This document shows positions 6,253 through 54,470 of a stretch of DNA of 64,000 nucleotides, in pieces. The translations under genes and the position numbers were made by a program. The stretch is from Warburgia ugandensis (taxonomy: Eukaryota; Streptophyta; Magnoliopsida; Canellales; Canellaceae): contig CP141133.1 of the NCBI GenBank assembly GCA_035236585.1, positions 46,145,729 through 46,209,728 on the forward strand, given 5' to 3'. Below the pieces are notes generated by a model. That model was not told where the DNA came from. It saw nothing but the letters and a program-made list of their open reading frames with translations, and searched no databases. Each line of letters starts with the position of its first letter. Position 1 is the stretch's first letter.

Positions 6253-6254
6253 GT

Positions 6255-16797: not shown

Positions 16798-17812
16798 CCA
16801 AGAGCTTTACTCACAAACATCACAATAAAATTAGCTTTTGTAGAAAGAGTCCTTAATGCCCAAGAAGAAGATACAACAACTCAGTAATTGTGTAAAAAGA
16901 AAGGATTTATTATGCTTACAGATGGGGGTGTACGTTTTCAAAAGAGATTGGTGGTTCCTTTAAATACATACTTGAGAAAGGAACTGATACAAGAAGCCCA
17001 TCAGTCAAAATTTTCTACACACCCTGGGGGTGCAAAGATGTATCAGGATTTAAAAAGAAACTTTTAATGGGAAGGCATGAAAAGAGAAATAGGAGAATTT
17101 GTGGCTAAATATCTAAATTGTCAACAAGTAAAGCTTAACACCGAAGACCAGTTGGAATGTTACAAACATTGGAACTTCTAGAATGGAAATGGGACAATAT
17201 CACTATGGATTTTGTAGCAGGATTGCCAAGGACCCGAGCACGCCATGACATGATTTGGGTGGTTGTGGATATTCTAACAAAGTCATCACATTTCCTTGCA
17301 ATTAGTTAGAACTAATTAATTGACAGTCAAGCTAAGTTATACATCAAAGAAATAGTAAGTCTTCATGGGATTCCACTATCCATTATCTCTGATAGGGATG
17401 GAAGATTTACTTCAAGATGTTGAAAGAGTGTACAACAAGCCTTGGGAACCTCACTTAAATTCAGTACAGCATTTCACCCCCCAACAGATGGTCAATCATA
17501 AAGGACTATTCAAACCTTAGAAGATATGTTGAGAGCATGTGCATTAGATTGGAAAGGGAGTTGGGATGAACATCTTTCGTTAGTAGAATTTACATGTAAC
17601 AATAGTTTTCAAGCAAGTATTGGTATGGCACCATATTAAGCATTGTATGGACAGCCATGTCGATCACCAACTTGTTGGAGTGAAGTTGGAGAAAGAAAGC
17701 TGATAAAGTCAGAACTAGTGGAACAATGTATAGACAAGGTTAGATTGATACAGAAGAGGTTGTTAACAGCATACATAGACAAAAGAGTTACATAGATAAA
17801 AGATGTAGAAAC
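16798..17812 (+). pseudogene. T1 integrase, zinc-binding and core domains, broken
   Basis: An HHCC-type N-terminal region is visible (EAHQSKFSTHPGGAKMYQDL, then KYLNCQQVK with the first Cys changed to Tyr). The core has the first catalytic Asp (WEWDNITMDFVAG), the second ([11 protein letters not shown]), and then DGQS followed by a stop at 17499-17501 exactly where the catalytic Glu codon belongs. Several further stops and shifts lie at 16885-17790. The enzyme would insert the DNA copy into chromatin. Confidence 0.87.
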
Positions 17813-18205
17813 ATGGAATTTGATGTGGGGGAGCACGTATTTCTAAAAGTATCACCTGTCAAAGGAGTAATGAGGTTTGGAAGCAAAGGAAAACTTAGTC
17901 ACAGATTCATTGGTCCATTTGAAATCCTAGAAAGAGTTGGTTCAGTGGCCTACAAATTAGCCTTACCACCCCAACTTTCAGAAATACATAGTGTCTTTCA
18001 CATGTCTATGCTAAGGAAATACCTCCAAGATGACACACATGTACTTCAAAGGATGCAAGAAGAGCTAAAGCTAGACCTAACCTTCGAAGAGAAGGCAATA
18101 CGAATTTTGGATTGCAAGGAACAGAAGTTAAGGACCAAAAGCATTCCGTTAGTCAAAGTCCTGTGGCAACATCACTCTATTGAGGAAGCCATGTGGGAAA
18201 CATAA
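17813..18205 (+). pseudogene. T1 integrase C-terminus with chromodomain-like tail
   Basis: An uninterrupted 130-codon frame. First part: the GPY/F region of chromovirus integrases (HRFIGPFEILERVG, SVFHMSMLRKYL). Last part: IPLVKVLWQHHSIEEAMWE, the chromodomain-like tail of Tekay/Del elements, which in the family directs integration to chromatin. It is the best-preserved piece of T1 and supports the lineage call. Translation would need the broken upstream frame. Confidence 0.9.
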
Positions 18206-18293: not shown

Positions 18294-21200
18294 TGTAATA
18301 ACCCCAATTTTTGTAATTGATTGAGAAAATCAATTAAGTTTGAGTTTCAAAAATTTTGGGCTAGAATATTAGGGTTATTTAGAATGTACTTCTTATAGAA
18401 GTATAATCAAGGGATAAGACATGTATAATTGAAATTGAACTCAACAAACCCTTCAGAATGACTGTAAGCACGATAAATTCTGAATTCGGATGAAAAATCC
18501 TTAATTTTCTTTATTTTATGGACAAAAGGGTAAAATAGTAATTTTATCCATAATTGAGATTTGAGGCATCAAATTTTAAATGTGCTGAGAAATACGAACC
18601 CAATGCCACTAAGTACGCTCAATTCCGAGATCATGGGAATAAACCCTAATTTTTATACATAAAGGGCAAAATGGTCTTTTTACACTATGTAAAAGGAATC
18701 CAATGACCAGCCCAAGTGAAATCATGAGTCAAACCACTACCAACTGGTAGTGGAGAAAAAGGTGGTGGTGGAGAATCCAATGTTAATGAAATAATAAAAA
18801 GAATAAACCATAATCATTACACATAATCATGAAAACACCCAAAATGCCTATAAATACACCCCCAAAAATCCTCTAAAAATGTCCATAAAATTCTGACAAA
18901 ATTATCTTGACTTCCCTTGCAAAACTAGGCATAGATCCATTGCCAAAATTCCCTAAAGATCCCTTTCTTTCAGTTTTTCTCTCCTCTCTCTAGATTGGAA
19001 CAAGAGACCTAAATTCAATTAGGCACTTTGTTCCAGATCAAATATCCCAGATCGCACTGTATAAAATTTTCCACCATACCTTAGCTACAAAACGCCTAAA
19101 GAAATTTCAAGATCCAATGGCTCAAACAATAAAAATCCCAAGACAAGTGGATCTTGGACTATCTTATCATCAAACTGGTATTCTCTTAATTTGGACTATA
19201 TAACCGACATTTTTTTTCAATCAGGTAGGTGGAAACTCTTTTCACACTTGTTTCATATTAATTTATGTAATTTTATTTTTCCTGAAATTATGTTTAGGAT
19301 AAAAATAATAAAATTCAAGAAAGGGTATGAACCCTTCACATCAGGATGATGGAGGGCTCGGATGTAAAATCTAAGCCGACCAATTGATCGAGAAGACTCC
19401 AAAACCCCTATATTAGAAATTTTAAGAAATTTCATACTAGTTAAGGCCCTCAATTGAAGAGAGATTGATTGGATGGTGCAAACGGATGGTCCCAACCTCC
19501 AGATTGGATCGGGTTCCCAAAACATTTTGCGAAATGTAGCATGGAAATGCGCAATGTAGCGGTGGTTTTGCACGTGCGACGTCATTCCAACGGGACAACC
19601 ATGCATAAGCAACGGTCCTAGGTGGAAGCATCCCTCTTGCATCCAGGTGATGGGCGCACAGCGACCATTCCATCCACCCGAATGTTCCATCCAAACGATC
19701 TAGGTCGTCCATTCCAATGGGCCTAGATCATATCTAGACCATAAGAATAGACTGTGAACTTCCGAACACAATTCAGGAGTCATATGAACTCCAAATTGAG
19801 ATCGAAAAGAAGCTATGGAAATCTTACAACCTCTAGTTTCTTATGAAAGGATAAAATGAAGAAATATCTTACGAAACTTTCTGTATTTAGGAAATAAGTT
19901 TCCAATTTCTAAGATCTTCAAGATCTGAGCTAATCAGATCTTGGTAATCTGTTTTAATAATGAAATACTATTGAAATAAAGTGATGTCTATGGTTTATTT
20001 AGACATATCTAAGATATATTAAGGGATCTACCTGCTATGGAAGAAAAACCCTAAAAATACAAAGGGACCCACTTGATCAATGAGGTCAAGTGTGATTAGT
20101 TCGTTGGGATGGATTGAATGAATGTTAATATGATGAAATCTAGGGAGATCGTAGATTGAATATGACAAAAACAAAGCAGTATGATCTTTGATCTTAATGA
20201 AGAAAAACCCCTAAATGTAATTAAAACCCATGATTAAAAGGAAAAGATATAAGATCTAATGGTTGGATCATAAGTAAAGGTTTCTAAAAATATTAATGTA
20301 ATTAGTTTCATTTTCTATTAATTGATAATACAATTTTAAATGTGATTTATGTTATAAAGCATGCTAGTGCAACTTTTAGACTTTAGCATGATATGTGATT
20401 AGATTGTTATAATAGGTTGCTAGATTTAATTATCTTAGGGGAATGTTAGTGTGATTTTATGCAAGTGTAACTTAGGACCAAGTTAGTATGATTTCATGTC
20501 ATTGCAACTTAGGACCATGCTAGGATTTCATGTAAGATTATACTATAGTATGAGATTGTACCTTAGGTCCATGTTAGTTTAAATTGAGTTATTAAGGTAT
20601 ACTAGTTGCAAATCATGCTAGTGTAATTTTAAGTACCTTGTATCATTATCATTAAATTGTTCAATTATGTAGTTTTATGCTTTGAATTTATAATTCATTT
20701 ATTTAAATTTCATTAGTAGATCTACTTGTTGTGAGATATGGAGCATAAAATACCAAAAATGGAATCTAATGAGAAAGTAGAGTTTCATGACACAAATAAG
20801 AGTGGATTATTTTGGACTTAATTAGTAAGGGCTATAGTTAGTAGGACAATATAAGGATTATCAAATCCTTGGCCCAAACTAGGAGAATAATAAACCCCAT
20901 GAATGATAGTATAAATGTTCATGGACTTAATTAGAATCAATTAGAAAGAGTACTTAGGGTCAACATGCTTATAGGAACCTTATGAATGGCTGAGCTAAGG
21001 TCACTCTAGTGAATGTTGAACATAATGGTTAAGGAGGGTTGTCTAATAGAGCCTCGCTCTTCCCCTATATTTCGTTGACGTTTGTGAGGTCTAAACACCT
21101 CCTTACATGAGGATTGAAATAACCACTTTGTATTCACACATTCAGTTATTAAGCCTTAGCCAATCGAAAATAAGAGGAGCAGTCTAGCCTTAGGCTAAAA

Positions 21201-23144
21201 TAAGTTACCTTCAACCAGTAAAACATTAATTGGTTGAATAATAATAGTAATAGCATAAAAGGTTAGTAAATTATATAACCCAAATAAAAACTACAAGTAA
21301 GATATGGATGATCAAACAAGATCCATTAGATCTTGAATGATCAAGAATAATAATAATAAGAATATTGTATTGTATTGTATTTAGTATGCACGTTTATTAG
21401 TATGCATGTTATAGATCAAATCTAGTTCATTAGATTAGATAATCCAAACCCTTGATCAAAGATGATTCAAGGAAGAAAACCAATATCATCCTCTTTAAGG
21501 ATGATCCAATAACTAAACTTAGATAAAACAAGAAGTAGATGATAAAAGATCTAGGACCTTGATCTTTATGAACAAGTGTTGATTGTCGATCAAAGGATCT
21601 ATGAAAGATCAAGATCAAGGAGATGGACACACAAAGACTTAGAGATAGAAAATTCTTAAATATGAATGATTTAAAGATCATTCTAAATATTAGATCTATT
21701 GATCAATAGGATTGTTCATAATTTATATATATTGACAGTATGTATGGATGTACAGATTACATACATCAATTAAGATCATGGAAGATCTGAGAAAAGGGAT
21801 CACTTGTTGAAGGTAGGAGGATTTGATGAATGCATTTACATGGGATGTACATGACCTTATGTTGACAAGAGTAATGTTAATACTTGTATTAAATCCCCTG
21901 AAACCCTTATGATCCAACCAAACACATATAAAATGGTTAAGGACTAGACTCTAAGTGAATAAGGAACTAGAAGATATTTCAGCCCTAAGTAAACAGACAG
22001 ATTGTCTGATATGTATGAAATATTTTTTACATGCAAGCTTGGAGGCTTATGATTTTGTCTTAATAGACATAAACCTAGGGGATGCTATGTTAGAAGAGTT
22101 ATGAGGGTTTGGCCACTTGCTTCTTGAAATTTGATGATTTGATGATACCTTGCCCTATGAGAGGCTAAAAGTTGGGTGGGGCAATTATGGGAAGGCTACC
22201 ACTGTGAAAGTCCTGTCTCCCCATATGGGTAGTGACATAATATTTTCCAATGTGGTATTAGTGGTGAATAGGGTTGTTATCCGAGTGCACTAGTACGGAT
22301 CAGACTGTAACATGGTAGCCCTTTGATTATTTTGCACTATAATGCATATGAGAGTAGGCATAGTGAAATGCATTATGTTTTAGCATAATAAAATGCTAGG
22401 TAATTGTATATTACCAATATTTCCCAAGAAGGGAAATTCCTAGTGTAGGCTTAGCTAAAATAGTGAATTCTCATAATGGAGAGAATTGATCCACTTAGTG
22501 GGGAATAATATTTAACCACTTTCATAAATTTAACTGATTTACCCATGTATAGTATATATGTATATGGATGTACATATATTACAAAATAAAGAGTAGAGAC
22601 ATGAATATGTTTACGGATAACGGGATTATGAAGTATTAGAACTATATTGTCAATTATTATGCTTCTTGAATCTCCTACCATGCATTGCTTGCTGAGATAT
22701 TGTAAATGTTGCAATGTTTACAATATCTCAAATATAGGGAAGGAGAGTTAGGATCTCAATATGATAGAAGTATGAAGAGAATAATCTTCAAGGTATACCC
22801 CTTGAAGACATGTATTTTTCTTTTTTTTAGAGTATTGTATTGTAATGAGAGTTTCATTGTATGGTGAGCTTTGAGTTTTGCATTATGTAATTTGGGCAAC
22901 TATTGTAATGGATTTGGATGTACTGTGAACCACTAGATGGATTCTGAAATTTCATAAAAGTGTATTACTTCAATGGAATTTTATCTTATACAAAATTCTA
23001 CTTATGTTATTTATGAAGTGATGACTTGGGTTTTACAAAACAAGTTCTAAAGAAAAGAATTTTTGCTGCTTTGTTTTGTTAAAAAAAATTTCTATTAAGG
23101 GCCTTGCCTTTCAAAAATATATTACAAAATCCCAAGTCGTCACA
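18294..23144 (+). repeat. 3' LTR of T1
   Basis: TGTAATAACCCC at the start and AGTCGTCACA at the end, 4,851 bases, uninterrupted. It matches the 5' LTR along its full length with scattered substitutions and small indels. TATA box at 18846-18856, CpG-rich block near 19550-19690, Tat-shared module near 20820-21190, and a 14-bp perfect-stem hairpin at 22693-22730. Confidence 0.94.
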
Positions 23145-23149
23145 GATAG
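23145..23149. repeat. Target-site duplication of T1, right copy
   Basis: GATAG after the LTR end; left copy GACAG at 1290-1294. Confidence 0.7.
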
Positions 23150-23639: not shown

Positions 23640-24900
23640 TGTATGGCATGCTCATGAGGGTTCTAATTTTGAGAGCTTAAGCCCTATCTCAAATTAGCCC
23701 TTCTGTTTAGGGATGGGATGATTAGGGAACTAACCCTTTCTTCTATTATGTAGGTCAGCTGACAATTGGCTTACATGCATATCCAACATGACTATGGCTT
23801 GAGATTTGACATTGGCTAAATGTCTACTCTCATTTTGCAACTAGTGTAAGGCCTTTTTAGTGTCATAATTGTCTTTTAAAAGTTTTTCATGCATGCTGCA
23901 GATGTTTTCCTCTAAAGATGTTTTCTTTTGTTACTGAGGTTGTTGGAAGCTAGGTGGTTGCTGGGGAATTGCAGTTTTATGAGGGACATTTTGGGTAGGG
24001 GGTTCATATATAGCCCCCCATGGTAGTTATTCCTTGACTAGGAAAAATTGGGATACCTAGCAAATTTAGGTTTGTAGGTCTCAAAATACGGGTTGTTGCT
24101 AGGTTGTCAATATGTGTTCAATGCATTAGCTTGGTCTACAAGATATTCAGGGTATAATTTATTGGATAGATAGGTTGAAGTTATATGGGCTGGACTAGAA
24201 CAAGTGGTGCCTTTTGTGGAGGTTTATAGGATAAAGTAGCAGCCATGAAAGATTGAAACATAGTTTCAAGTTTGTCCATTCTTCCACTTAAAGGCTCAAG
24301 TTTGTTCAATTTTTCAACTATAGAGTCAAGCTTATAGGATAGATTTCCATGCATTCTTATCTCATATAGACACCCCTTTCTTTGGAGGCTAGTTAGTTCT
24401 CTCTCTCCTATTTAAATAATTCCATTACTAGGAATTATATACCAATGTCTAAAAGAACTCCCAAGCCTCTCTCTCATGCTTTAGCATGAGGGCCCCTCTA
24501 CTTTTGCATCTACCATTTATCTGTTTTGAGGCATTAATGTCTCATAGAAGTATTGAACTTGCTGTCATTTCTCAAATCCATGATGAGGGCTTCTGAATTA
24601 GTTCATTCCATCGTTCCCAACACTCGTAATACTATTCATCATAGCTTTGTTGGAAATTGATAATTTCACGCTAAAGGGCATTAGTTTTGTGAAAAGGGAA
24701 GAATTTGTTCAAAAACTTCTTAGACAATTGATCCCATGTATTTATGGAACGTACCTCCAAGAAATTAAGCCATGACTTGGCTTTGTAGAGGCATGTAGAA
24801 ATATCTTATTGCCTTGTGCTTGACTTCTGCTCATGGGTCAGCCATGGGGATATGAACTTGGTTTCTTTCTCCTTATCTTAGGTTGCATTGAATCTCTACG
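23640..24900 (-). pseudogene. gag: Tat-like gag, broken (element A)
   Basis: Minus-strand fragments of Tat-type gag: KFFPFHKTNAL followed by REIINFQQSYDE (about 24710-24640), then a WERWNELIQ segment and a region leading to the polar interdomain. Stops interrupt every frame. The same order of fragments is found at 41968-43330, so both belong to one family. Gag would form the particle shell. Confidence 0.8.
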
Positions 24901-26034
24901 TTGAAAGTTGTTAGCTCTGATTTCTGAGATCGACGCTAAATGTCTTAATCTAAATGGTGACTCTAACTCTACATGATGCATAATCAAATCCTAGTAAGCA
25001 CTAATCGAGTAGTATCTAGATTATCTTTGTTTAGTGCATAGGTGGTAGTTTCTTAGACCTAGATCTAGACAACTCCTTCTATCTAGATTTGACTACTACT
25101 TTCCAGTGAGGTTCCATTCAAAAGATGTTAATATAATCCTTTTGTTAGGAGACATTTAGACCTCAACTAGTGTTAATGAAAGGTGTAGGAAAATCACATG
25201 GATTTTAAGACACTCACTATAACCACAATGCTTAGAAGCCACTAGAGTGACAATAGATTGCATCCTTCTAAAAGGGTCATATGAGCTCGATACCCTAACT
25301 CTCTTTTTACTTGATTCTAAACTAATATTCAAGGGTTGGGATTGTGGCATACAAAGATGTTTAATGATTCCTAGGTGGGCCAAGAAACTGGTGATAAAAT
25401 CCAATCCTTATCTTATAAGGGCTCCTATGGGGCCCTTACTATCATTAATTCCATACCACCATAAAGTTGTAAATATGCAATGCAATAAAAAAGAAAACTA
25501 ATGCAACCTATATGCTATCAAACAAAGGTTAGATAGGTACTCTAATGCAACAATTATCAATGAATGATCCTAATCTATATGAATTACATTAACATCCAAA
25601 TGCGAATTATACTAAATTCAAATTATCCTAAAAATTAAAATTTGAGTGAGAGATACTTACAGTGAGGGGTTTGATGATGATCAAGTGTGGGCTACTATAT
25701 GCAACACTTGCCTCATATTATTACAACCCAGTTAAAATTAAATAATAAGAAAATTGCAATTTACAATGGGCCTCACTACAAGTTTCACACAATCCTAATC
25801 TAGGAAAGCAATAAAACCTAATCTAAGATAATGGAGCTGTGCACCACAGGATCACCAATTCTCCTTTTCCAATTTCTGTTGCACTAAAATCAAAGAAATA
25901 TGGTCAATATGAGGAAAATAGCAGCAAATACAAAAAGTATGCTAAAATTATGCAAAAACCCTATTCTAATGCACCATAAACCTAGACTAGAGGAAAATAA
26001 TTAAAATTATGAAACACTACACAAATTGTTGCAA
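24901..26034 (-). other. Leader of Tat element A, with shared module
   Basis: Untranslated region between primer-binding site and gag on the minus strand. It aligns by eye with the leader at 43331-44371, for example around 25190-25260 and 43600-43680. The section 25040-25450 also aligns with the LTR of the Tekay family (see 33150-33550): TTAGGAGACATTTAGACCTC against GTAAGGAGGTGTTTAGACCT, and CCTAGGTGGGCCAAG against CCTAGTATGGGCCAAG. Confidence 0.65.
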
Positions 26035-26062
26035 CTCCTTGACAACAAATCCAAAATATTAT
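26035..26062 (-). promoter_or_regulatory. Degraded primer-binding site of Tat element A
   Basis: The minus strand reads TTTTGGATTTGTTGTCAAGG, a degraded form of the TTTGGCGCCGTTGCCGGGG leader start typical of the Tat/Athila branch. It marks the inner end of the LTR at about 26063. Confidence 0.65.
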
Positions 26063-27856
26063 TGATGTTTTAATTAAAACTTGCCAATGCACGAATCATT
26101 TGCAATATAGTAGACTAGAGAGGTCGATTCCACAAGGAGTGAACTATTGTGATGTTAGTGGTTCCTACTTTAAACTATCTAACCTAGCAAAAATTCAAAT
26201 GATTTTTAACCTAAATTAAGAATGAAAATGAAAACATGAAATTAGAAACTACGAAAAATAAAAAAACATGCTAAATGGGAAACTTTCTTAATAGAGAATT
26301 AAAAGTAAGGGAAACTTACTAAAACTTCTACTAAGCAATTGGAATTGAAAATTTAACTAATTAACAATAAAAAAATAAAGAAACTACAAAGAATTAGAAA
26401 GATTCAAATCAAGAAACTAAACTTTAAAAGACTACTTAAAAAAAACTTTCCTAATTTAGAACTTCCTATACTAAAACTTACCAAAAATACAACTTTCTAA
26501 AATTCAAAAAAGAAACTTTCTAAACCTAAAAAAATATAGAAATAACTAATTTAACTACTATAACACAAGATCCAACAAATAAATTAAGCAAAGTTCAAAG
26601 AAGAATGGGACTTAGAACCATGCACATGGTTTTTGGACTATGAGCAAGATTTTTGAGCCCTAAAGATGGTAAAATTGAATGTACCTACAGTTAGTTACTA
26701 TGCAAACTAACTATGTGATCTAATAAATAACATTAAAATTTAAATGGTTATTTAAGGATTTAGGAAAATAAGATGTTTTGATGGCTGGAATCAAAGCACA
26801 AATTTAAGGAAAAACTACTTTCTAGATTTCGATATTTAAATATAGTCAATAAATCTTGCAATAGAAATCTATTAAAACCACAAATTTTATGCAAGAAAAC
26901 ATCCTAGATCCAAAGTAAATTGATGAAAGAAACATTTCATAATAAGAATTCCCAAAGAACTATTTTGAATCCTATCCAATTTACATCAAAATTATGCGCA
27001 TAAAACTATCCACAAAATATGAAAATTATGCACTTTTCTAAAGCCTGGAATCCTATCTAAACATAAAAAAAATTCCAATCTAATTTTAAAATACAAAGTG
27101 CAATTAGATGCAAAGAAAAACCAGAAAGGAATTTAAGAGAAACAAAGGCTATGTGGGTGAACTGACTATGGGAAAAACACCTAAACTAAAGGGGGAAAAT
27201 AGTGAATTTTAAGTGAAAAAATCAAGGACTTAAGCTGGCTCATTTCTTGGTTATCACTACCAGAGAATAACTAACTTGAATCTTGATTGAATAACAAAGA
27301 AAAACTGATTGAATGGTGTGAAGAAGAAAAAGATTAAGGGCTGGAAAATAACATGAATTCTAAAGAGCAAAACAATGAAAACATAAAGCAATAGAACTAA
27401 AGTAAAACAACTAGGTTATTAACCTAAATTGGAGGGAAAATAAGAGAGAGAATAATAAGAATACCAAAGGAAGAAAACACCAACAATATTCCAAAGTACA
27501 GCAGCAAATAACACTAGGGAAAAGCTTGATTTCAAGGTGTGTCGCCCACCTCTACTTGGAAAAATCATATGGACTATGGGGCTATATATAGATGAGCAAT
27601 TTCCTAACTTAGGAATTTGTGAAAACATGAGGAAATAGGCCATAGGGGAGGTATTGAATGAGGAAGGTTAAGTGGAAGATGAATTTGCAAGATGATGTCA
27701 TAAACATGACATAAGTGAGAGATAAGAAGCATGGGATGGCTAGTTTCTAATTTTGAAAAGGATGTAGGTGTCTTTTTTTCTAGAAGGAAAGTGGGGTGAC
27801 ATGGGAAAAATTGATTGGCTAAGTGATTTTCTAGAAAGTGAAGATTGGTTGGACAT
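26063..27856 (-). repeat. LTR shared between two Tat interiors (A and B)
   Basis: On the minus strand this segment follows the integrase end of element B (27880 onward) and precedes the primer-binding site and gag of element A. It therefore serves as 3' LTR of one copy and 5' LTR of the next. Inner boundary near 26063 from the primer-binding site; outer boundary tentatively 27856 at a TGTCCAACC start on the minus strand. The segment at 44400-46440 is a diverged member of the same LTR family. No clear polypurine tract is visible next to the outer end. Confidence 0.6.
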
Positions 27857-33149: not shown

Positions 33150-33550
33150 TGGTTGAAGGTAACTTATGTCATCCTATGTCTAGACTGCTCCTCTTATTTC
33201 CAATTGGCTAAGGCTTACTAGCTGAATGGTGGAACACAAAGTGGCTACTTCAATCCTCATGTAAGGAGGTGTTTAGACCTAACAAATGTTAACGAAAGGT
33301 AGGGGAAGAGCGAGGCTCTATTAGAGAATCCCCTTAACCACCATATTCAGCATTCACTAAAGTGACCTTAGCTCAACCTTTTATAAGGTTGCTTAAGCAT
33401 TTTAACCCTAAGTACTCTTTCCAATTGATTTTAATTAAATCCATGAATATTTAAAATGTCATTCACGGGGTTTATCATTCTCCTAGTATGGGCCAAGTAT
33501 TTGATAATCCTTATATTGTCCTACTAACTATAGCCTTTACTGATATTAAA
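33150..33550 (-). other. Module shared with Tat leaders (D 3' LTR copy)
   Basis: Easiest place to see the match on the plus strand: TAGACTGCTCCTCTTATTTC, GTAAGGAGGTGTTTAGACCT, AACGAAAGG, CATTCACTAAAGTGACC and CCTAGTATGGGCCAAG occur in the same order as their counterparts in the Tat leaders at 25040-25450 and 43470-43880. Confidence 0.7.
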
Positions 33551-36008
33551 TCAAAGTCATTCACTCATCTTAATTGTTCATGAATCTCTATATTCCATTA
33601 GTTTACATTTTTGGTGATTTATGCTCATTATATCTTAACAACTACTTAACAATTTAATTTACTAATAAAATTTGACAACAATTAAATCATAAACACTCAA
33701 GCATAAATCCAATATAATTTTAACAACCATTTATACTAACATGCTTCCTGTTAATGTAACTTAACCTAGTGGAATAAAACTATACTTAAACTAGCATGAT
33801 CCTATATTATGAAATACATGAAATTTTACCACTAATCTAATGGAATCATGCTAAAATCTCATATTTAAACTATTATGGCCCTAAGATAATTAAATCTACC
33901 AACCTAATAACAAACTAATAACATTTAGATCATACCATGCTAAAATTTAAGAATTACCTTATCATGCTTCCTAATTTACAACATAAATCATGTTTACAAT
34001 TCTATTATCAAATAAAAGACAATTAAACTAATTAGATTATGATTATTGGAAACTTTTACTTATGATCCAACCATTAGATCTTTTCCTTTAGATTAAGCAT
34101 TTTAATTACCTTTAGGGCTTTTACTCCATTAAGATCCAAAGATCATATCCACTTATTTTTGTCACATTTAATCCATGATCTTACTGGATTTCATCATAAT
34201 CCCATTCATACAACCCATCCAAAGGGTTTGATCATGCTTGATCTCATTGATCAAGTGGGCCCTTTGTATTTGTAGGGTTTTTTTAGCATAAAGGGTAGAT
34301 TCCTCATTTTATGTTAGATTTGTCAAAATAAATCATGGATATTACTTGATTTCAACATTATATCATCATTGCATTAGATCCTAAGATCTGATCATCTCAG
34401 ATCTTGAAGATCATGAAAATTAGAAACTTAATTTCTAAAAACAGAAAGTTTCTTGAAGCTTTTTATCAATTTTATGACTTCATAAGAAAATAGAGATTAC
34501 AAACTCTCCATAGCTTCTTTTTTATATTAATTTGGAGTTTAGATGACTCCACAATTGAAGACTGAAGTTCATAGTAGTTCCGAAGGTCCAGATTTGAATT
34601 GGGCCCATTGGAACGAACGAGTCTAATTAATTGGGCAAAGTGGGTCCAGTTGGGTGGAACGACCGCTACGCTCCTATCACCCAGGACGCACGAAGTAACG
34701 CACTCCCCAGGACTGGCACTGTCACGTGGTCATTTCGTCAGGACAGCATTGCACGTGGAGATGCTCCTATAGGGCACGTTTCCATGCGGCATCCTGGGGA
34801 CCCAATCATATTAGGAAGATCGGACATTTCATTTTGGGCTGTCCAATCAATTGCTCTTCAAAGAAAGGTTCAAAACTTAATTAAATTTTATGAAAATTCT
34901 ACCTTAGGGGTTTTGGACCCTTCTAGATCGATTGGAAGGCTCAGATTTTTCATCTATGTTCTCCATCATCCAGAATTGAAGGGTTCTTATCCTTACTTGA
35001 TTTTTATTATTTTTAACCTAAAACTAATTTTAGAAAAATAAAAATTATATAAACTAACATGAAATAAGTGTGAAAAGTGTTTCCACCTACTTGATTGGAG
35101 AAAAATGTAAGTTTTGCAACCTAATTTAAAAAAAATGTCCACTTGATGATAAGATCACCCAATAACAACTTGTTTTGTGATTTTCCATTGATTGCACCAT
35201 TGGATCTTGAAATTTCTTTTGGGATTTTGTAGGTAAGGCAGTCTAGGACAATATGAATGGTGGGATCGTGAGATTTGATTTGGAATAGGGTGCCTAATTG
35301 AATTTAGGTCTCTTGTTCCAATTTAGAGAGAGGAGAAAGAAAGTGAAAGAAGAGAGGTTTTTAGGAGTTTCGAAAATTTGGGAACGAATCTAGATCTGGT
35401 TTTGCAAGGGAAGAAAGATAATTTTGTGGTAAATTTATGAGCATTTTTGGAAGATTCTTGGGGGTGTATATATAGATGTTTTTGAATTTTTTATAATTAC
35501 TTGTAATAATTATGTTTTAATTCTTTTGAATATTAAATTAACATTGGATCCTCCACTACCACCTCCTTCGCCACCATCAGCTAGTAGTAGTTTGACCACT
35601 CATTACATGTTTTCTTGCCATTGGATTCATTTGTGGGCCCCACGAAGGTGTGAAAGGACCATTTTTCCGAACTCGAAATTGAGTGTACTTAGTGGTGTTG
35701 GAATTATATTTCTCAGTACATTCTAAATATTGACGTCCTAGATCTCGTTTATGGGTAAAATTACCATTTTACCCTTTTATTCATAAAAATGGAGAAAATT
35801 AGTGATTTTTCATTTTAACTCAGAATTGAACGTACTTAGTGTCATTTCGATTGTTTTTTGAGTAAATTCATAATTTCTAAGTTTTAAATAATTTTTTAAT
35901 CTTTATAAAAAGAAAATTTCCTAAAACTTAATATTCTAGCCCAAAAATTTTTAAAATTCAAACTAAATTAATTTTCTCAATCAATTTACAAAAATTGGGG
36001 TTATTACA

Positions 36009-36445: not shown

Positions 36446-37690
36446 TCAATCAAATAATACTTTTACATCTCTATAAGGCATAAACAAAGTACTTTTAATC
36501 TTTCCTTTGGACGATTGACCTTCAGTAATAGCAAAATACCCTCCCTTGCTGTCGAGGGACATTTTTTGGTTTGTCATCCTTGATTGCCAAAGGTTTGTTA
36601 CAATGATCAACCATATGTCCCAACTCTCCACACTTATAACATTTCACTGGGGGTCTTTGTTGTTGTCGCCATTAATTGTAACATGGCCTTCCAGGATGAA
36701 ATCTTTTGCATCTAAAACATGATTTTTGATTCTGTCCAAATGCAGGATTTCCTTGATTTCTTTGTGGCCTAAAATTGTTCATGCATCCTTTGTTTTTCTT
36801 AAAAGGTTACGGATTGAAGTCTCCCACTTATCCTCTTTTCTCAGTTTGGTTTTTCTTAAACTCCTCTTCAAATTTTGAGGCCATTTCCACACATTTTGCC
36901 AAGGTTGTGGGTTTAGTACAAAGTACCTTTACTATCAACCCTGACTGTAGCCCTTCTATGAATCTATTCACTATGTGTGTTTCAATGTTACACACATGAG
37001 TCACAAATCTCCTTAACTACGTAAATTTGTTATCGTACTCTACTACTGACATGTTTCCTTGTCTAAGTTCCAAAAACTCTATCAGCTTTCTTGCTCGTAC
37101 ATGAGAAGGAAAATATTTGTGGTTGAAGAGTTCCTTAAATTCCTACCATGTAGTATTTTTAGAATTTGAGAAGAAGGTATTGCTAGTTGATCTCCACCAA
37201 ATTGCAGCTTCTTGCTTTAATAGATAGGAGGCAAGTTTAACCTTTGACTTTAAAGGAGTACGTAGTGCACTGAAAGTCCTTTCTAGTTCATATATCCATT
37301 CCTCAACCTTTTCAGCTTCTCCTTTGCCATTATACCCTGTAGCCATCCTTTGAAGCCTTTCCATCATTTTTTCAACCTTTTCTCGGCAAATAGAGGATTT
37401 CTAACTTCTTCACTTGGTACAAGGGAAGATTAACCCTGTACTAGTGTGGGAGTATTTGGTGTTGGTGTTGGTGTATTGTGTCTCATTTCAGGCTGAGCTT
37501 AAGCCTAAGTACTTGGTACCTCTACTGGAGGTAATGAACTTTGGGGCTATTGAATGTGAGGATGAAGGTTCCTCAATACTCTTATTACCATCTCTTCCAC
37601 ATTATCCATTGTAACTCTCTCCATATTATCTTTTGGTGTATTTTGAGGTGTATGCCTTATGAGTCTTTTTGGCAACATCTACTCATAAAC
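36446..37690 (-). pseudogene. gag: Gag with protease stub, T1-type (element D)
   Basis: The minus strand has the gag domain at 37143-37367 (EWIYELERTFSALRTP and AIWWRSTSNTF, nearly the same as T1), then a knuckle region near 36600-36660 and a KVLFD at 36446-36460 where the protease active site would begin. The sequence then changes to noncoding. Stops and shifts lie near 37140, 36840 and 36670. Gag may once have been made without pol. Confidence 0.83.
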
Positions 37691-38622: not shown

Positions 38623-41600
38623 TGTGATGACCCAGGTTTTTGTAACACATTTTGTAATACATTTTTCAAAGGCAAGGGCACCCTTAATAGTAAAAAATTT
38701 TTGCAGAAAAAAGAAATGGGAATTCTTTTCTTTACAACTTGTTTTGTAAAACCCAAGTCATCACTTCATACATAACATAAGTAGAATTTTGTACAAGATA
38801 AAATTCCATTGAAGGAATATACTTTTATTAAATTCTAAAATCCATCCAGTGGTTTCACACTACAGCCCAGGTATCAGTACAATACTTCTCCAAATTACAT
38901 AATCGAAATTTCAAACCTCACCATACATTAAAAACTCTCAATATAATATAATGCTCTCAAATAAAAATATATGTCTTCAAGGGATATACCGTGATTGATT
39001 TTTCTTCCAAATCTTCTTAAGTCTTGAGCTCCTAATTCTCCTTCTCTGTATTTGAGATATTGTAAACATTCAAACATTTACAATATTTCAACAAGCTATG
39101 CTTGGTAGGAGATTCAAGAAGCATAATAATTTAACAGTATAATCCTAATACTTCATAATCTCATTATTCATACTCATGGATCAATCTCTTTACTTTGTCA
39201 TACATGTACATCTCTACACATACATACTGTATATGTCGTATAGATATATATACAGTCAAAACTGTGAAAAATTGTTAATATCTCAAACATCAATAGTCAT
39301 ACTCAAACACATTGAGTTGATCAATCATCCAAACTCTGTTGGGAAAATGCTCCCTTATTTGGGGAGTATCAGCATCTCATTATGCCATGCATCATAATGC
39401 AAAATACTGAAAGGACTACTATGTTGTAGTCTAATCCGTACCAATGCACTCAGATAACTACTTTCATACTGCATGGATACCAAGTGTGGAAAATCATCTA
39501 TGCCATATCTATATGGGGAGATAGATTGTCACAGTGGCAGCCTTCCCATAATTGTCCCACCCAACATTTTACCTCTCTTTGCGCACGGTATCATCATATA
39601 TATCACATTTCGGAGAGTGGGTGGGCAAAACCTCATAACACTCCTAGTATAGCATACTCAGGCATATGGCTGTTTAAAACAAAACCACAAGCCTCCATGC
39701 TTATATATAAAGTAATTTTTTTACTTATCAGATGTCTTGTTTGTTTATATCATCATCCTTGTACTTTAATATTCTTATACTGAGGATAGGATTTCACTTG
39801 AAACTTAGGGATCGTCATTTACAATGAATGATGACCACGTTCATATAAGTTTAGGGATCACCATTCTATATGAATAATTTCCATGTATTATTTTTATACC
39901 TATCAAACAATTTTCCTGTTTATCTAGGGCTAGAATACCTTCTAGTTCCCTATTCACTTATGGTTTTTCTCAATTCTAACTTAACCATTCCATATGTGTT
40001 TTGGTTGGATCATATGGGTTTTCAATGGATTTAATACAAGTATTTATATTATACTTGTCAACATTTCCAGACATTAGATCATGTATTGAACATGTATTTC
40101 TCATGTAGATGCATTCATAAAATCCCCTTACCTTCAAGTGGTGATTCATCTCTTCAAATATTTCATGATCCTTATTAACATATGAAATCTATAAATCCAT
40201 ACATACTGTCAATATTTATACAATCTGAATAATCATATACTTTTTTATCCTATCTATATTCTTTGTCTAATCTTGTCCTTTGATATAAAGGATCTAGATC
40301 TTGTGTCCTATCATGATCTATCTTCCTCAAATAGTACAAATCAATAGATCTAACTGTTAGAATGATCTTCTAATCTTTCAGATCTAAGTATTTTCCATTC
40401 TAAGTCTTTGTGTATTCCTTTCTTTGATCTTGATCTTTTATAGATCCTTTGATCAATAATTTATACTTGTTAATAGAGATCAAAAGCTTAGATCTTCTAT
40501 CATCTAGTTATTCTTTGATCTAAGTTCGGTTGTTTGATCATCCCTAAGGAGGATGATCTTAGTTCTCTTACTTGAATCATATTTGGTTAAGGGTTTGGAT
40601 TCTCTATCTACATTTGTCTACAACATACATACATAGATACATAATAAAATACGACATCAGGATTCTTATTGTTCTTGATCATTCAAAATCCTATGGATCT
40701 TGTTTGATCATCCTTATCTTACTTACAATTTTTATTAGGGTTAGATAATTTACCAACCTTTTATGCTTTTATTATTATTATTCAACTAGTTAATGTTTTA
40801 CTAGTTGAAGATAACTTATTTCATCCTAAGTCTAGACTGCTCCTCTTATTTCCAATTGGCTAAGGCTTACTAGCTGAATGGGTGAACACAAAGTGGTTAC
40901 TTCAATCCTCATGTAAGGAGGCGTTTAGACCTCACAAAAGCCAACAAAAGGCAGAGGAAGAGCGAGGCTCTATTAGAGAACCCCCTTAACCACCATGTTC
41001 ACATTCACTAAAGTGACCTTAGCTTAACTTTTCATAAGGTTCCTATTAGCATTTTAACCCTAAGTACTCTTTCTAATTGATTTTAATTAAATCCATGAAC
41101 ATTTAAAATATCATTCATGGGGTTTATTATTCTCCTAATATGGGGTTTATTATTCTCTTAATTTGGGCTAAGGATTTGATAATCCTTATATTGTCCTGCT
41201 AACTATAGCCCTTACTAATATTAAGTCAAAGTCATTCACTCATCTTAATTATCTATGAATCTATATATTCCATTTGTTTACATTTTTGGTGATTTATGCT
41301 CATTATATCTTAACAACTACTTAACAATTGAATTTACTAATGAAATTTGACAACAATTAAATCATAAACATTAAAGCATAAATCTAATATAAGTTTCATA
41401 ACCATTTATACTAACATGCTTCCTATGAATGTAACTTAACCTAATGGAATAAAACTAACTTAAACTAGCATGATCCTATGTTATGAAATAAATGAAAATT
41501 TTACTACTAATCTAATGGAATCATGCTAAAATCTCATATTTAAACTAACATAGCCCTAAGATAATTAAATTTAACAACCTAATAACAAACTAATAACATT

Positions 41601-41967: not shown

Positions 41968-43330
41968 GAACTGAACCTTATTTCAAATTGTTCCCTAGGG
42001 TTTGGAATTGGCTAACTAGGAAATTATTCCTTTCCTCTATCATTCATTGTAGTAGACAACTGGCTAATTTGCATTTCTAATTTGGCAATAGCTTAGGAAT
42101 TTACATTTGATTTCTGTCTACTCTCATTCTAAATATTGTGTAAGGCCTTATTAGTCTCCTCATGTTTCTAAGGAGCAACTCTATATTGTCCTCAACTGAT
42201 GGTTTCTTTGGTTGTTGAGGAAGTTGAAAACTAGGTGGCTACAAGGGAACTAAAGCTCTAGGAAAGTTTTGTGTAGGGGGTTAATAGATAGACTTCCTTG
42301 GTAATTGTTCTTTGACCTTGACAAGTTAGGATGCCTAGCACATCCTAGACTATATGGGTCTCAAAGTAAGGGTTATTGCTAGAACAAATATTCTAGGTTA
42401 GAACAAACCTCTTGTGGAGGTTTAGTGGATGGTTGGATAGCCATGAAGGCTTAAAACATATTGCCAAGCTTGTCCACTCATAAGGAGTCAAACTTATACA
42501 TTCTATTAATCATAGAGTTAAGCTTATGGGATATATCTAAGGTGACTCTTATATCATACAAGCCTCCTTTCTTTTGAGGATGGGTATTTCTTTCTTTCCT
42601 ATTGGAATAGTGCCATTGCTATGAATAATCTGCTAAAGTTTGAAAATATTCCAATGCCTCTATCTCATTTTACAAAGTGAGGGGCCCCCACTAGCTGCAT
42701 CCATCACTAGCCTATCTCAGGCATACATGCCTCACAGAAGTACTAAACTTGCTACCATTTCTCGAAACCATGGTGGGGATACTTTTGCCGCAATTAGTTC
42801 CACCTTTCCCAACATTCATGACATTGTTCATCATCTCTTTGTTAAAAATTGATAATTTCCTTACGAAGGGAGTTAGTCTTATGGACAGGGAAGAATTTAT
42901 TCAAAGCTTTTTAGACAACTAGTCCCATGTGTAATGGAATTGACCTCTAAAGAATTCAGCCATGACTTGGAGTTATCTTTTAATGAGATGGGAAACAATC
43001 TAAGTCTAACAAAATCATCAAAAATATTTTAAAATTTGAATGAAAAACAAATATCAAGGAATTCCATGATATGTAAGTATGGATTCTCTCTCTCACGACC
43101 ATAGAATGTCGAGAGTAATTGTATGACTCCAGGTAAGTTCAAAGTGGTTTGCATTGGTGGGTGGTAAGGTGATGCATGATGGAGTATTTAATAGGAGTGA
43201 AGTAAAGAAATCTATTTTGGCCTTATGCTCAATAATAGCTTGTGGATCTGCCATGGGCTTAGGAATTTGATTTCTTACCCCTTGCCTATGGGTACATTCA
43301 ATCTCAGGGTCTAATGGTACTAACACAATG
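41968..43330 (-). pseudogene. gag: Tat-like gag, broken (element C)
   Basis: Minus strand: KFFPVHKTNSLRKEIINF and a WERWN segment (42910-42780) followed by YPHHGFEKW parallel the gag of A. The start side (43326-43093) reads MLVPLDPEIECTHRQG and then MADPQAIIEHKAKID, which resembles the N-terminal part of Tat gag. The protease expected next is missing: the sequence stops at the truncated LTR of D. Confidence 0.78.
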
Positions 43331-44371
43331 TTCTAAGATCGACGACCTTCCTTGCACTATAATAAAAACCAATCTAAATGATGCAACCTAAATATAAATG
43401 TGACTCCTAACTCTATATGATGCATAATCAATCCTAATAGTTCACTAATGAGCTTGTATTGATAATCTTCATTAATCTGTAGGGTGGTAGATTTTAGACT
43501 TAGATCTAGATAGCTCCTTCTTTCCTATTAGGTTCTATTCTAAAGTGGTTAATACAATTCTTAAGTAAGGAGGCATTTAGACCTTAACAACCATCAACAA
43601 AAGGTGTGAAAAAATCACTTGGATTTTGGATACCCACTATAACCATGATACTTAGAAGCCAGTGTAATGACAATAGATCTCATCTTTCAAAAAGGGTCCT
43701 ACAAGCTTGATACCTTGAGTCTTTTGCTACTTGATTTTAAATTAAGCTTTAAGGGCTATGATCGCTAACATAGAAGGAATTGATTTGATTACCTAGGTGG
43801 CCTAAGGATCTGGTGATAAAATCCTATCCTTATTTTTGAAGGGTTCCTATGTGGTCCTTACTATTAATGTGTTCCATACACCATGAAGCAGTAAACATGT
43901 AATGCAAATATAAGAAAAGGAAACTAATGCCTACCGATATGCCATCTACCAAAATAAACTTAATTAAATGGGTGCAATTGAATCCAACAACCCAAAATAA
44001 AATGCAACAAGTATAATGAATGACCCTAATCTATATGAATTACACTATCAACCAATATGCAAACTACACTAAGAAAATAAAAGGGAGTGAGAGAATATTA
44101 AAGTGCCTTGTACTATTACAATCCATTTAAAATTAAATAAATAATTTCAAATTACAATGGGGTCTCACTACAAGTTCACTCAAAAACCTAATTTAAGAAA
44201 GTAATGAAATCCCAATTAAGTTGATGAAACGTTGGCCCACAACGAAAGATGCTCAATTTGTCAGAAATTAGTAAAATATGCATGAATGATGCAAAAATCC
44301 TAATCTAATGCAACCTACAACTATAGCTAAAGATAAACAATCTAAATAATGATCCAACCACAAATTTGTTG
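43331..44371 (-). other. Leader of Tat element C, with shared module
   Basis: Homologous to 24901-26034. The section 43470-43880 contains the module shared with the Tekay LTRs: AAGTAAGGAGGCATTTAGACC, AACAAAAGGTGTG, GAAGCCAGTGTAATGAC and ACCTAGGTGGCCTAAGGATC appear in the same order as in D 33150-33550. No coding motif. Confidence 0.65.
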
Positions 44372-44397
44372 TGATTCCCTGGAAAAGGTGCCAAAAA
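44372..44397 (-). promoter_or_regulatory. Primer-binding site of Tat element C
   Basis: The minus strand reads TTTTTTGGCACCTTTTCCAG, a degraded form of the TTTGGCGCCGTTGCCGGGG start of Tat/Athila leaders and better preserved than the site of A. Confidence 0.72.
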
Positions 44398-48739: not shown

Positions 48740-49598
48740 AAAATCTGGAGTTCCCTCTTTGAGTGGTGACAACTATAAAGTTTGAAAGGAGAAAATTCTT
48801 CTTCATTTAGGGTGCATGGATCTTAACTATGTTTTCGAAATGAAGAGCCTCTTGAAATTATAGAAACTAGGACCAATGTCGAGATCACTTTGTATGAACA
48901 TTGGGAGTGATTTAATCACTTAAGTATGATGTTCAGTAAATCTCGAATTAGTACTAGCATCATGGATCGATACTTAAGTGTAGAAATGTCAAAGATTTCA
49001 TGAAAGTTATTGATGAAAAATTTGAGTCATTTGATAAAGCATTAACTAGCACCTTGATGAAAAAGTTGTCATCTATGAAACTCATTAGTACTAAAGGAGT
49101 GTATGAGCACATTATGAGAATGAGGGACATAGGTGCTTAGCAGAAGTCATTACTGATTAAGATTTCAAAGTCCTTTTTAGTGCACTTTGTTTTGAACTCT
49201 CTCCCTTCTCAATATAGACCGTTCAAAATTTCATATAGCACACATAAAGAAAAATGTTCAATTAATGAACTTTTGACCATGTGTGTTCTAGAAGAAGGAT
49301 TAGCTCAAGATATCGGTGAAAGTGCACATATGGATAACCATAAAAGGAAATGAGGCAAGCTTATAAAGGAAAAGGAAAAGGCAAGGTTGTAGCCCATGCT
49401 GATAAAAAGGAGGCTACCAGGTGTTTCTTTTGTAAAAAGAAGGGACACATAAGGAAAGATTGCCCTAGAAGGAAGGCTTGGCTAGAGAAGAAAGGTAATC
49501 TCAAATCTTTTATATGTTATGAATCTAATATGGTTGATGTTTTACATACTACATGGTGAATTGATTCTAGTTGCACAATCCATATTTATAACACCATG
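48740..49598 (+). pseudogene. gag: Copia gag with zinc knuckle, broken
   Basis: Starts with a LSGDNYKV segment followed by a stop in place of the usual Trp, then KILLHLGCMDLNYV; the UBN2-like gag body follows across several stops and shifts. The best-preserved piece is 49350-49559: a lysine-rich stretch, then the CCHC knuckle CFFCKKKGHIRKDC at about 49419-49460, then AWLEKKG and CYESNMVDV. After a stop comes IDSSCTIH, the start of the protease active site. F is inserted a few codons later. Confidence 0.85.
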
Positions 49599-49603: not shown

Positions 49604-52600
49604 TGTAATAACCCCAATTTTTGTAATTGATTGAGAAAATCAATAAAGTTTGAGTTTTAGATATTTCAGGCTGAAATATTAGGGTTATTTAGAATATACT
49701 TTTTATAAAAGTACAATCAAATAATAAGACATGTAAATTTGAAATTAAACTTAGCAAACCCTTCAAAATGACTGTAAGTATGACAAATTCTGAATTCGGA
49801 TGAAAAATCCTTAAGTTTCTTCATTTCTTGGACAAAAGGGTAAAATAGTAATTTTACCCAAAAATCAAAATATGAGACATCAAAATTTAGAATGTACTGA
49901 GAAATATGAATCCAACGCCACTAAGTACACTCAAATCCGAGATCATGGGAATAAAACCCAAAATTTTATACATAAATGGCAAAACAGTCTTTTTACACCA
50001 TGTGGGGCCCACATGGGGGCCCACAAGGGACCCAAAAATGGATCTTATGAGCACCCCACATGAACTCATGGGTCAACAAACACCAGCTGGTCTTGGGGAA
50101 GAAAAATGGAGCAAGGGGAAGAAAAAATAGAGCATGGGAGACTTTCATGCCATTTAATAATAAAAAATTAAATATTATAATCATGAAAGAAGACCAAAAT
50201 GCCTATAAATACAACCCCAAAAATCCTCCAAAAAATCTCACAAAATCCCCACGAAATTTTTTTCACTCTCCCTGAAAAATTAGACCTAGATCCCTCCCCA
50301 AAAACCCAAAATTTCCAAGAGATATCTCTCTTTTCAATTTCTTTTCTTCTTAGATTGGAACAAGAGACCTAAAATCAATTAGGCACTCTATTCGAGATAT
50401 ACTATCATCAAATCCACTGTCCAAAACTTCCCAACATATCTTCGCTATAAAACCCCCAAATCAATTTCAAGATCCAACAGTTCAAACAACGATAATTTGC
50501 AAGCAAGGTGGATCTTGGGCCATATCTTCGTCAAAGGTATTTCTTTTAAATTGGACACATAAACAACATTTTTTATCCAATCAGGTAGGTGGGAATACTT
50601 TATATAGATGTTTACTACTAGTTTATGTAATTTTTAGTTTACTATAATTTATTTTGGTAATAAAAAGGTAAAAATAAAGTAAACACCAGAACCTTTAATT
50701 CAAGATTATAGATTGCTCATATGAAAATTCTGACTACACCAATCGATCTAGAAGGGTCCAAAACCCCTAGGGTAGAAGTTTCACAATGATCGGAGACGTT
50801 TTGGGCCCTCAATTGAGAGAGGATTGATTGGAGGGTCCAAAATGGACTGTCTGATCTCCAAATCTAATAGCGCCCAAGATACATGTGTGACTTAGCATTG
50901 GAAATGGTGCATGCAAAAATGTTCCGCGCATGCTGAGCATGGGACGTCATCCCAAGTGAGACAACGGCATGTCCATCAAACCGACGAGCGGACGCGCCCG
51001 ACGAGCGTCTCGCTCGTCCAGTTCGCGTTAGTGGAAGTCCCAGACAAGCGCTTCCATCACGCCACTGTGGTGAATGCGCCCGATGAGGGAGAGTGTTCCA
51101 CTCAGCTTGGTTTTTCACTTGAAAGATCTGGGCCATCCGTTCCTTGGGCCCATATCAAATCTAAGCCCTAGAAAGGACTGTGAACTTCTAAATCAAATTC
51201 CGGAGCCATCTGAACTCCAAATTAAGATCGGAAAGAAGCTATGGAACGCTTGAAACCTATATTTTCTGATGAAATGATAAAATGGACATAATATTCAGTA
51301 AAACATTCTGTATTAAAGAAACAAGTTTCCAAATACCTAGATCTTCAAGATCTAAGATGATTAGATCTTGAAAATATGTTTTACTAATGATATACTATTG
51401 AAATAAAGTCATATCTATGGTTTATTTGGACATATCTAAAATATATTAAGGGATCTACCCATTATGGTAGAAAAACCCTAAAAATACAAAGGGACCTACT
51501 CGATCAATGAGATCAAGTGTGATCAGATCCTTGGGATGGATAAAATGAATGTTGATATAATGAAATCCAAGAAATCATGGATGGATTATGACAAAAATGG
51601 ATCAATATGATCTTTGGACCTTAATAAAGAGAATCCCCTAAATATAACCAATACCCTTAATCAAAGGAAAAGATCTAATATCTAATGGTTGGATCATAAG
51701 TAAAGGTTTCTAAAAATGTTAATGTAATTAGTTTCATTTTATATAATAGCATTTTAAATATGATTATGTTATAAAGCATGCTAGTATAACATTTAGACTT
51801 TAGCATGATATGTGATTTCATTGTTATCATAAGGTGCTAGATTTAATTATCATAGGGGGCATTTTAGTATGATTTCATGCCATTCTAACTTAAGACCATG
51901 CTAGAATTTCATATAAGTTTATACTATAGTATGAGATTATACCTTAAATCCATGTTAGTTTAAATTGAGTTATTAAGGTATATTAGTTGGAAATCATGTT
52001 AGAGTAATTTTAAGTACCTTGCCTCATTATCATTAAGTGTTAAATTATGTAGTTTTATGCCTTGAATTTATAATTCATTTATGCTTAAATGTTATTAGTA
52101 GATCTACTTGTTATGAGATAAAAAGCATAAAACATCAAAAATGTAATCTAATGCAAAAGTAGAGTTTCATGACACAAATAAGAATGGAGTACTTTAGACT
52201 TAATTAGTAAGGGCTATAGTTAGCAGGACAATATAAGGATTATAAAATCCTTGGCCCAAACTAGGAAAAGAATAATGAACCCCATGAATGACATTATAAA
52301 TACTCATGAACTTAATTAAAATCCCTTAGAAAGAGTAGCTAGGGTAAAAATGCTTATAGGAACCTTATGAAAGGTTGAGCTATGGTCATTATAGTGAATG
52401 ATGAACATAGTGGTTAAGGGGGTTATCTAATAGAGCCGCGCTCTTCCCCTACCTTCTGTTGACGTTTGTGAGGTCTAAACGCCTCCTTACATGAGGATTG
52501 AAGTAACCACTTTGTGTTCACCCATTCAGCTAGTATGCCTTAGCCAATTGAAAATAAGAGGAGCAGTCTAGATTTAGGCTTGAATAAGTTACCTTCAACT

Positions 52601-54468: not shown

Positions 54469-54470
54469 AT

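Follow-up and report, generated by a model that had tools for sequence, protein, structure and literature searches.

We identified a noncoding module of ~390 nt in six of six Tekay-like LTR copies and two of two Athila/Tat-type leaders within a 64-kb stretch of the Warburgia ugandensis genome (hereafter, the window). The module is a real, old block of noncoding sequence common to two distant Ty3/gypsy lineages. Noncoding parts of LTR retrotransposons are usually regarded as lineage-specific and fast-changing. A block that is conserved among Tekay-like elements and recurs in a distant lineage's leader is likely to be a functional element, acting as RNA or as DNA. The best reading of these observations, to which we assign about an even chance of being right, is an ancient transfer of a cis-acting leader element between the lineages, after which the element was kept for its role in cis.

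Eight copies of the module in two lineages

An earlier note on this DNA had named seven stretches as related by eye. The module is present in all seven, and we add an eighth copy that was absent from that list (40825–41216, minus strand). The Tekay-like copies lie in the 5′ LTR (T1, 3834–4204, plus strand) and 3′ LTR (T2, 20824–21194, plus strand; 20813–21209 as a profile match) of a first element, in the 5′ LTR (T3, 52206–52578, plus strand) and 3′ LTR (T4, 60843–61209, plus strand) of a second element at 49604–63121, and in the 3′ LTR (D3, 33173–33541, minus strand) and truncated 5′ LTR (D5, the added copy) of a third, element D. The remaining two copies lie in the pre-gag leaders of two Athila/Tat-type elements (A, 25044–25453, and B, 43495–43862, both minus strand). 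The module has the same sense orientation in both lineages, as had been claimed, with the strands now corrected to minus for D, A and B and plus for T1–T4.

The two leaders were aligned locally, in the sense orientation, with the five Tekay-like stretches listed in the earlier note (the sixth copy was left out), and each alignment was controlled with 200 dinucleotide shuffles and the opposite strand. Scores were 562–653 in all ten leader–Tekay comparisons. Shuffles gave means of 290–323 and maxima of 359–390, and the opposite strand scored at the shuffle level (276–336). The cross-lineage alignments exceed the shuffles by 11–16 SD in the ten comparisons, and the similarity first seen by eye is real. 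A BLAST comparison of the window with itself returned all 12 LTR–leader pairs (six LTR copies by two leaders) at E ≤ 1e-6, with 56–70% identity over 207–701 nt and 80–116 bits; identity was 62–64% in 8 of the 12.

A profile built from the eight copies recovers its eight source places at E 1e-110 or better, by construction, and detects no further place below E 0.05 in the 64-kb window. The 20-letter motif AGGTCTAAAYRYCTCCTWAC, derived from the copies, matches exactly in all eight; with up to three mismatches allowed it has no other site in the window, and 0.09 sites are expected by chance. Chance or low-complexity similarity is exceedingly unlikely and is rejected on the z values of 11–16, the shuffle-level scores of the opposite strand and the motif count, with nothing found in its favor.

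Tekay-like host elements

The 3′ LTR of element 1 (18294–23144, plus strand, 4851 nt) has TG..CA ends and contains T2. Its 5′ LTR, a repeat of this sequence, is in two parts (1293–4578 and 12091–13681, plus strand) and is followed by the PBS TTGGTATCAGAGTC (13683–13696, plus strand), which we take to be tRNA-iMet-like. Pieces of gag, protease, RT, RNase H and the IN C-terminus extend on the plus strand from 13987 to 18202, with Pfam matches, in order, to Retrotrans_gag, RVP_2, RVT_1 (under the curated cut-off), RT_RNaseH_2 and SH3_Tf2-1. Element 1 thus has the Ty3/gypsy order gag-PR-RT-RH-IN, with IN judged from its C-terminal side (SH3_Tf2-1). SH3_Tf2-1 is the sole match to the piece at 17744–18202, the end of which presumably resembles a chromodomain. 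The placement of these elements in the Tekay clade is putative and follows the earlier note. One Tekay gag/protease piece, used as a protein query, returned no match at E ≤ 0.001.

An insertion of ~7.4 kb (4578–12023) splits the 5′ LTR of element 1 and carries direct repeats that are 80% alike (4540–6024 and 9792–11191); the module profile finds no copy inside it. A possible target duplication of element 1 (CATAG/GATAG) occurs at 1284–1300 and 23145–23149, with the start of the 5′ LTR too diverged for sure placing.

The second Tekay-like element (49604–63121, plus strand) has LTRs at 49604–54468 and 58235–63121, flanked by TAGGG and TAGGA. A Ty1/copia gag piece (48958–49556, plus strand), with a weak Retrotran_gag_2 match and a zinc knuckle, ends near the insertion point at 49604. 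Element D, on the minus strand, has a 3′ LTR at 36008–30975 and a truncated 5′ LTR at ~41950–38623 with a PBS at its inner end. Its stretch 37741–36335 is 74% identical to the gag/protease region of element 1, and its piece 37146–37400 is not scored as gag by Pfam. In Tekay-like elements the module is therefore inside the LTR and upstream of the PBS, at LTR profile positions 2511–2906 (20813–21209 in T2).

Athila/Tat-type host elements

Both Athila/Tat-type copies are on the minus strand. The LTR of copy A spans 26065–27790, with A–B homology from ~27787 and a PBS-like site at 26057; LTR ends of this type are approximate because the window holds no LTR pair of these elements. We searched with a 22-letter query that we take to be the Athila/Tat-type PBS. 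The PBS of copy B (44376–44397, minus strand) has 4 mismatches of 22 and is the best site in the window, the next best having 8. The degenerate PBS of copy A (26036–26057, minus strand) has 8 mismatches of 22, a level reached by six sites in the window of which 26057 is one, and it aligns with the PBS of B. A–B identity rises at the PBS, from 51–67% in the LTR to 67–80% in the leader (150-site windows).

The leader of these elements is ~1.2 kb long. Downstream of it are gag fragments with matches to Retrotrans_gag, at 24674–24805 (minus strand, E 2.4e-6) for A and at 42900–43028 (minus strand, E 0.053, below the curated cut-off) for B, and an aligned ATG at 24845 and 43254 is, judged by eye, the likely gag start. 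The module lies 535–604 nt downstream of the PBS and 199–241 nt upstream of this likely gag start. The positions of LTR ends, PBS and gag thus bear out the earlier description of the module as LTR in one lineage and pre-gag leader in the other.

The hosts of A and B are Ty3/gypsy elements with a PBS, a long leader and gag. On the upstream side of this LTR in A, Pfam recognizes rve and RT_RNaseH. The group name Athila/Tat follows the earlier note and our own presumption. An additional RNase H (aRH) domain is described as setting Tat apart (PMC6317226). The pol at 30490–27834 (minus strand), which is decayed and perhaps part of a different element from the one with leader A, leaves almost no room for aRH: 156 nt from RH to the next IN piece, 3 nt between protease and RT, and ~44 nt from the end of IN to the LTR. 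This pol has good Pfam matches for RH and the IN core alone; its protease, RT and IN-end pieces have no Pfam match and were named by eye. The host elements called Tat may be Athila.

Extent and identity of the shared sequence

Two Athila/Tat-side stretches, of 7.8 and 7.6 kb, were searched with a profile of the whole 4.85-kb LTR built from four copies. Just two matches were found at E ≤ 1, covering model positions 2511–2906 in A (E 9.7e-27) and 2522–2895 in B (E 3.5e-22). The edges of homology agree between A and B within 11 model positions at both ends. BLAST gave an extra weak match between A and D (26127–26557 with 33592–34034, 56%, 54 bits), within the LTR of A, for which the whole-LTR profile gives no support. 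A simulation of the clustering of matches into blocks was uninformative, as identity matched in no more than 14 and 2 of the simulated sets.

A coding function is rejected: stops occur in the six frames of all eight copies, most indels are not in threes, and the longest open stretch is 83 codons, in one frame of A. The earlier note had raised an unrelated small insertion, such as a SINE, in both lineages as another source of the match. No SINE or terminal-inverted-repeat signature was found in the eight copies. A B box, strict or loose, occurs in none of them, and no tail was seen; a strict A-box pattern occurs in five of the eight (not in A, B or D3). For terminal complementarity, the mark of a MITE or other element with terminal inverted repeats, each copy was equaled by 19 or more of 300 shuffles. 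Rfam gave no match at the gathering score in the window, and the sub-threshold matches in the two module stretches tested were meaningless. Exact-pattern searches of IMG/VR (two patterns) and of a bacterial and archaeal genome set (one pattern) returned 0 matches, as expected for a module that sits in plant repeats.

These results bear on the possibility that a SINE, a MITE, a gene fragment or some other third element or host sequence entered a Tekay-like LTR and an Athila/Tat-type leader in separate insertions and was fixed in both. A single, well-delimited block whose ends nearly coincide in the two Athila/Tat-type copies would suit such an origin. We nevertheless consider it unlikely, as none of the eight copies has a B box, no tail or terminal inverted repeats were found, no Rfam family matches at the gathering score, and the 64 kb contain no further copy of the module.

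Conservation and divergence

The module belongs to the best-conserved stretch of the Tekay-like LTR (T2 versus D3). By maximum likelihood, the segment of low divergence between the T and D subfamilies spans 20820–21355 (plus strand), with its start at 20818–20830 and its end at 21317–21357. The edges of the module in T2 are at 20813–20824 and 21198–21209; its left edge agrees with that of the low-divergence segment, the right edge of which lies 108–159 nt past the module. Fixed differences between T and D affect 19 of 391 module sites (4.9%) versus 118 of 550 sites upstream (20100–20811, 21.5%; Fisher p 7e-14), and downstream they affect 13 of 162 sites over the 170 nt that follow and 26 of 172 sites farther on. 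The low-divergence block is wider than the module, because 156 of 1569 shifted windows were as low, the lowest from 20904. Among 350-site windows, 9 of 215 (T2–D3), 11 of 212 (T3–D3) and 59 of 217 (T2–T3) reached the identity of the module.

LTR pairs within one element differ by 0.079 in the module versus 0.048 outside (bootstrap interval of the difference 0.016–0.047), so mutation in the module is not slower once an element is dead, and the module is not a cold spot. In these pairs it looks as if it mutates faster once silent. The excess of T–D divergence over within-element decay is 0.039 (0.018–0.064) inside the module and 0.168 (0.135–0.202) outside. The low T–D divergence points to selection or repeated exchange, rather than to a mutation cold spot.

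Selection acting while the family was active would predict the Tekay-like pattern, and exchange among subfamilies is the alternative. Under the latter, the stretch would have been repeatedly exchanged among families, with the low divergence owed to exchange and not to selection. The sharp left edge of the low-divergence segment is consistent with exchange, although a functional unit would give a hard edge too. The LTRs also look mosaic: the LTR that bears T2 (18294–23144) and the LTR at 49604–54468, which bears T3, are 53–78% alike over about 18746–19970 and 80–93% alike thereafter, so that their divergence is strong in one part and slight in the other. No donor is seen in the window, however, and we regard repeated exchange as a credible account with the chances against it.

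Copies A and B are 75% identical across the module, 64% identical across the remaining aligned LTR, leader and gag start, and 77–80% identical in the leader immediately before the module; 23 of 171 A–B windows reach the identity of the module. The conservation contrast is weaker in Athila/Tat-type elements than in Tekay-like ones, and the module is no better kept than the adjoining upstream leader.

Position in the RNA

The Tekay-like LTR has a conserved TATA box 1963 nt upstream of the module. TATA[AT]A[AT] occurs at this LTR column in four of four aligned LTRs (18849–18855 in T2, plus strand; context CCTATAAATACACCCCCAAAAA). The exact sequence CTATAAATAC is also present in T1, T3 and T4 and is absent from D3. 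On the Athila/Tat side, the TATA box of the LTR of A (27583–27590, minus strand) aligns with that of B at 45865. The distance from TATA box to module is 1963 nt in T2, 2137 nt in A and 1999 nt in B.

The module thus lies on the sense strand ~2.0–2.1 kb past a TATA box in both lineages and, if the conserved TATA boxes mark start sites, is probably in the 5′ leader of the RNA. The earlier proposal that it occupies the 5′ part of the genomic RNA in both lineages accordingly stands as probable, on the TATA boxes and the sense strand. A second conserved TATA box occurs in the Tekay-like LTR at position ~3430, and a start there would leave the module upstream. The module begins with AGTAAGG (at 20824 and in other copies), and the splice-donor-like GTAAG is kept in six of the eight copies.

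RNA folding and the nature of the element

The earlier note had offered a structured RNA function as one explanation of the shared sequence, with covariance folding as a check. RNAalifold gave the eight copies a consensus energy of −42.1 kcal/mol versus −21.9 (SD 3.9) for column shuffles, none of 100 of which was as low. The antisense strand likewise beats its column shuffles (0 of 100). As a control, 28 overlapping slices of the LTR were folded with 15 shuffles each, and sense z values ranged from +0.3 to −8.8. The module slice (−6.9) came fourth, so the column-shuffle z does not single out the module, three of the 28 slices being lower.

Changes on both sides affect 14 of 77 consensus pairs in alignment A1, versus 6.6 in shuffles and 1–5 in slid versions, for a structure that came from the same sequences. 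The covariation term of RNAalifold is about zero (0.02), and additional pair types show no surplus, with 387 of 500 shuffles as high. Held-out tests, in which the structure of the six Tekay-like copies was placed on A and B, kept 70 of 105 and 59 of 90 pairs, with permutation p values for A and B of 0.028 and 0.018 on the sense strand and 0.046 and 0.067 on the antisense strand. Paired sites are not better kept than unpaired ones (58–59% versus 63% identical). The Tekay-only fold (106 pairs) and the Athila/Tat-only fold (80 pairs) have 3 pairs in common. Folded singly, T3 and D3 have z values of −1.8 and −1.9, and A (−0.02) and B (+0.94) fold like shuffles.

A conserved RNA fold of the module is weakly supported by these analyses, and a structured RNA element is possible. 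The sense strand, the probable 5′ place in the RNA and the conservation in Tekay-like elements agree with the structured-RNA proposal; the fold itself is weak, and controls fold as well. Of the covariance check, the excess of both-side changes speaks for the proposal, and the negligible covariation term and the ordinary number of pair types speak against it.

Just downstream of the module, in a part conserved in Tekay-like elements only (21206–21375), three short hairpins occur in succession, as judged by eye. In the third, T1 and D3 differ by a two-sided change from T-A to C-G, also seen by eye.

The module might instead act as DNA, as an enhancer, an internal promoter or a chromatin target used by both elements. 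The unremarkable single-copy folds of the Athila/Tat-type leaders and the failure of paired sites to be better kept than unpaired ones would fit such a role, as would a TATA-like ATATAAGG and a CCAAT box within the Tekay-like module copies. In the alignment, however, the TATA-like ATATAAGG is not kept in A and B, and the shared sense orientation and the place ~2 kb past a conserved TATA box suit an RNA element better. A DNA role therefore seems to us rather unlikely.

Origin of the shared module

Relative to the module, the PBS is downstream in Tekay-like elements and upstream in Athila/Tat-type ones. Across lineages, the module (56–70%, 80–116 bits) is closer as DNA than the RT/RNase H stretch found by BLAST (53%, 72 bits). 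The greater closeness of the module and the changed side of the PBS favor transfer over vertical descent. Under vertical descent, the module would have served as a leader element in a shared ancestor of chromoviruses and Athila/Tat elements and survived in both, and the LTR of the Tekay line would have grown past it. The similar TATA distance in both lineages and the strong conservation in Tekay-like elements would fit this history. It would, though, require that the module stayed more alike (62–64% in 8 of 12 pairs) than RT/RNase H and that the PBS crossed the module, and we consider it very unlikely.

The earlier note had suggested that template switching between co-packaged RNAs moved a leader. 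Transfer between the lineages is supported indirectly, by the opposite sides of the PBS, the same two ends of homology in A and B, and the confinement of whole-LTR profile matches to a single block. The route is less constrained, as template switching, nested insertion and a third source would leave indistinguishable traces at this age. In the transfer reading, a cassette of ~390 nt would have crossed between the two lineages, one a Tekay-like chromovirus and the other an Athila/Tat-type element, at a time before today's subfamilies separated. The simplest route would be strand transfer between two RNAs packaged in the same particle. The cassette would have ended up in what is probably the R-U5 part of the LTR in one lineage and in the leader between PBS and gag in the other. 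Judging from the TATA boxes, both lineages would read it on the sense strand ~2 kb past the promoter, in the 5′ leader of the genomic RNA, and it would have been kept because it acts there in cis. Its likeliest role would be that of a genomic-RNA signal that serves packaging or dimerization, or that regulates splicing or translation ahead of gag.

A precedent comes from template-switch chimeras among plant LTR retrotransposons, where exchange is ascribed to RNAs packaged together and to reverse transcriptase jumping between them (Sabot and Schulman, 2007; PMC1950507). Those chimeras resemble the present case in the exchange of sequence between elements. The complexes described there are flanked by target duplications, contain an additional inner LTR and are modeled as joins of close relatives (PMC1950507), whereas here one short, old, noncoding block links a chromovirus-like and an Athila/Tat-type element.

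Packaging provides a second precedent. BARE2 is reported to use the Gag of BARE1, with dimerization and packaging signals kept (PMC3735527). There, cis-acting RNA signals preserved in different element types allow an RNA into the particle of another element, a situation that the module would resemble if it is such a signal. BARE1 and BARE2 are subfamilies of one family (PMC3735527), in contrast to the distant lineages and weakly supported fold of the present case. Both precedents, for template-switch chimeras (PMC1950507) and for kept packaging signals (PMC3735527), concern closer relatives.

Two other systems are comparable. The conserved motifs of Sireviruses show, as does the module, that noncoding parts of plant retrotransposons can be conserved beyond their surroundings (PMC2829016). 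They are described as repeated motifs and junctions within one Ty1/copia genus (PMC2829016), unlike the single ~390-nt block in two Ty3/gypsy lineages. Cassandra carries 5S-derived sequence in its LTR (PMC10853983) and is alike in having a conserved foreign cassette inside the LTR; in the present case, by contrast, no Rfam family matches the window at the gathering score. Among the literature matches listed, titles and abstract openings mention no noncoding block common to chromoviruses and Athila/Tat elements.

A mobile cis-acting RNA cassette could let the RNAs of one lineage be handled by the particles of the other, a prospect that we regard as doubtful. If the module were such a packaging or dimerization cassette, distant retrotransposon lineages in one plant genome would share or steal replication machinery. 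With a defined target of ~390 nt, packaging or leader roles in plant Ty3/gypsy elements can be put to the test. The shared module also means that unrelated lineages can be merged when repeats are annotated by noncoding similarity.

The Athila/Tat-type side of the window has a composite layout of its own. The stretch 27834–23150 (minus strand) contains, in one orientation, an IN end (by eye), an LTR, a PBS, a leader, gag and then a protease-like stretch. This last stretch has no Pfam match and is, we presume, akin to Athila protease. Two Athila/Tat-type elements appear to share one LTR here, as in complex elements.
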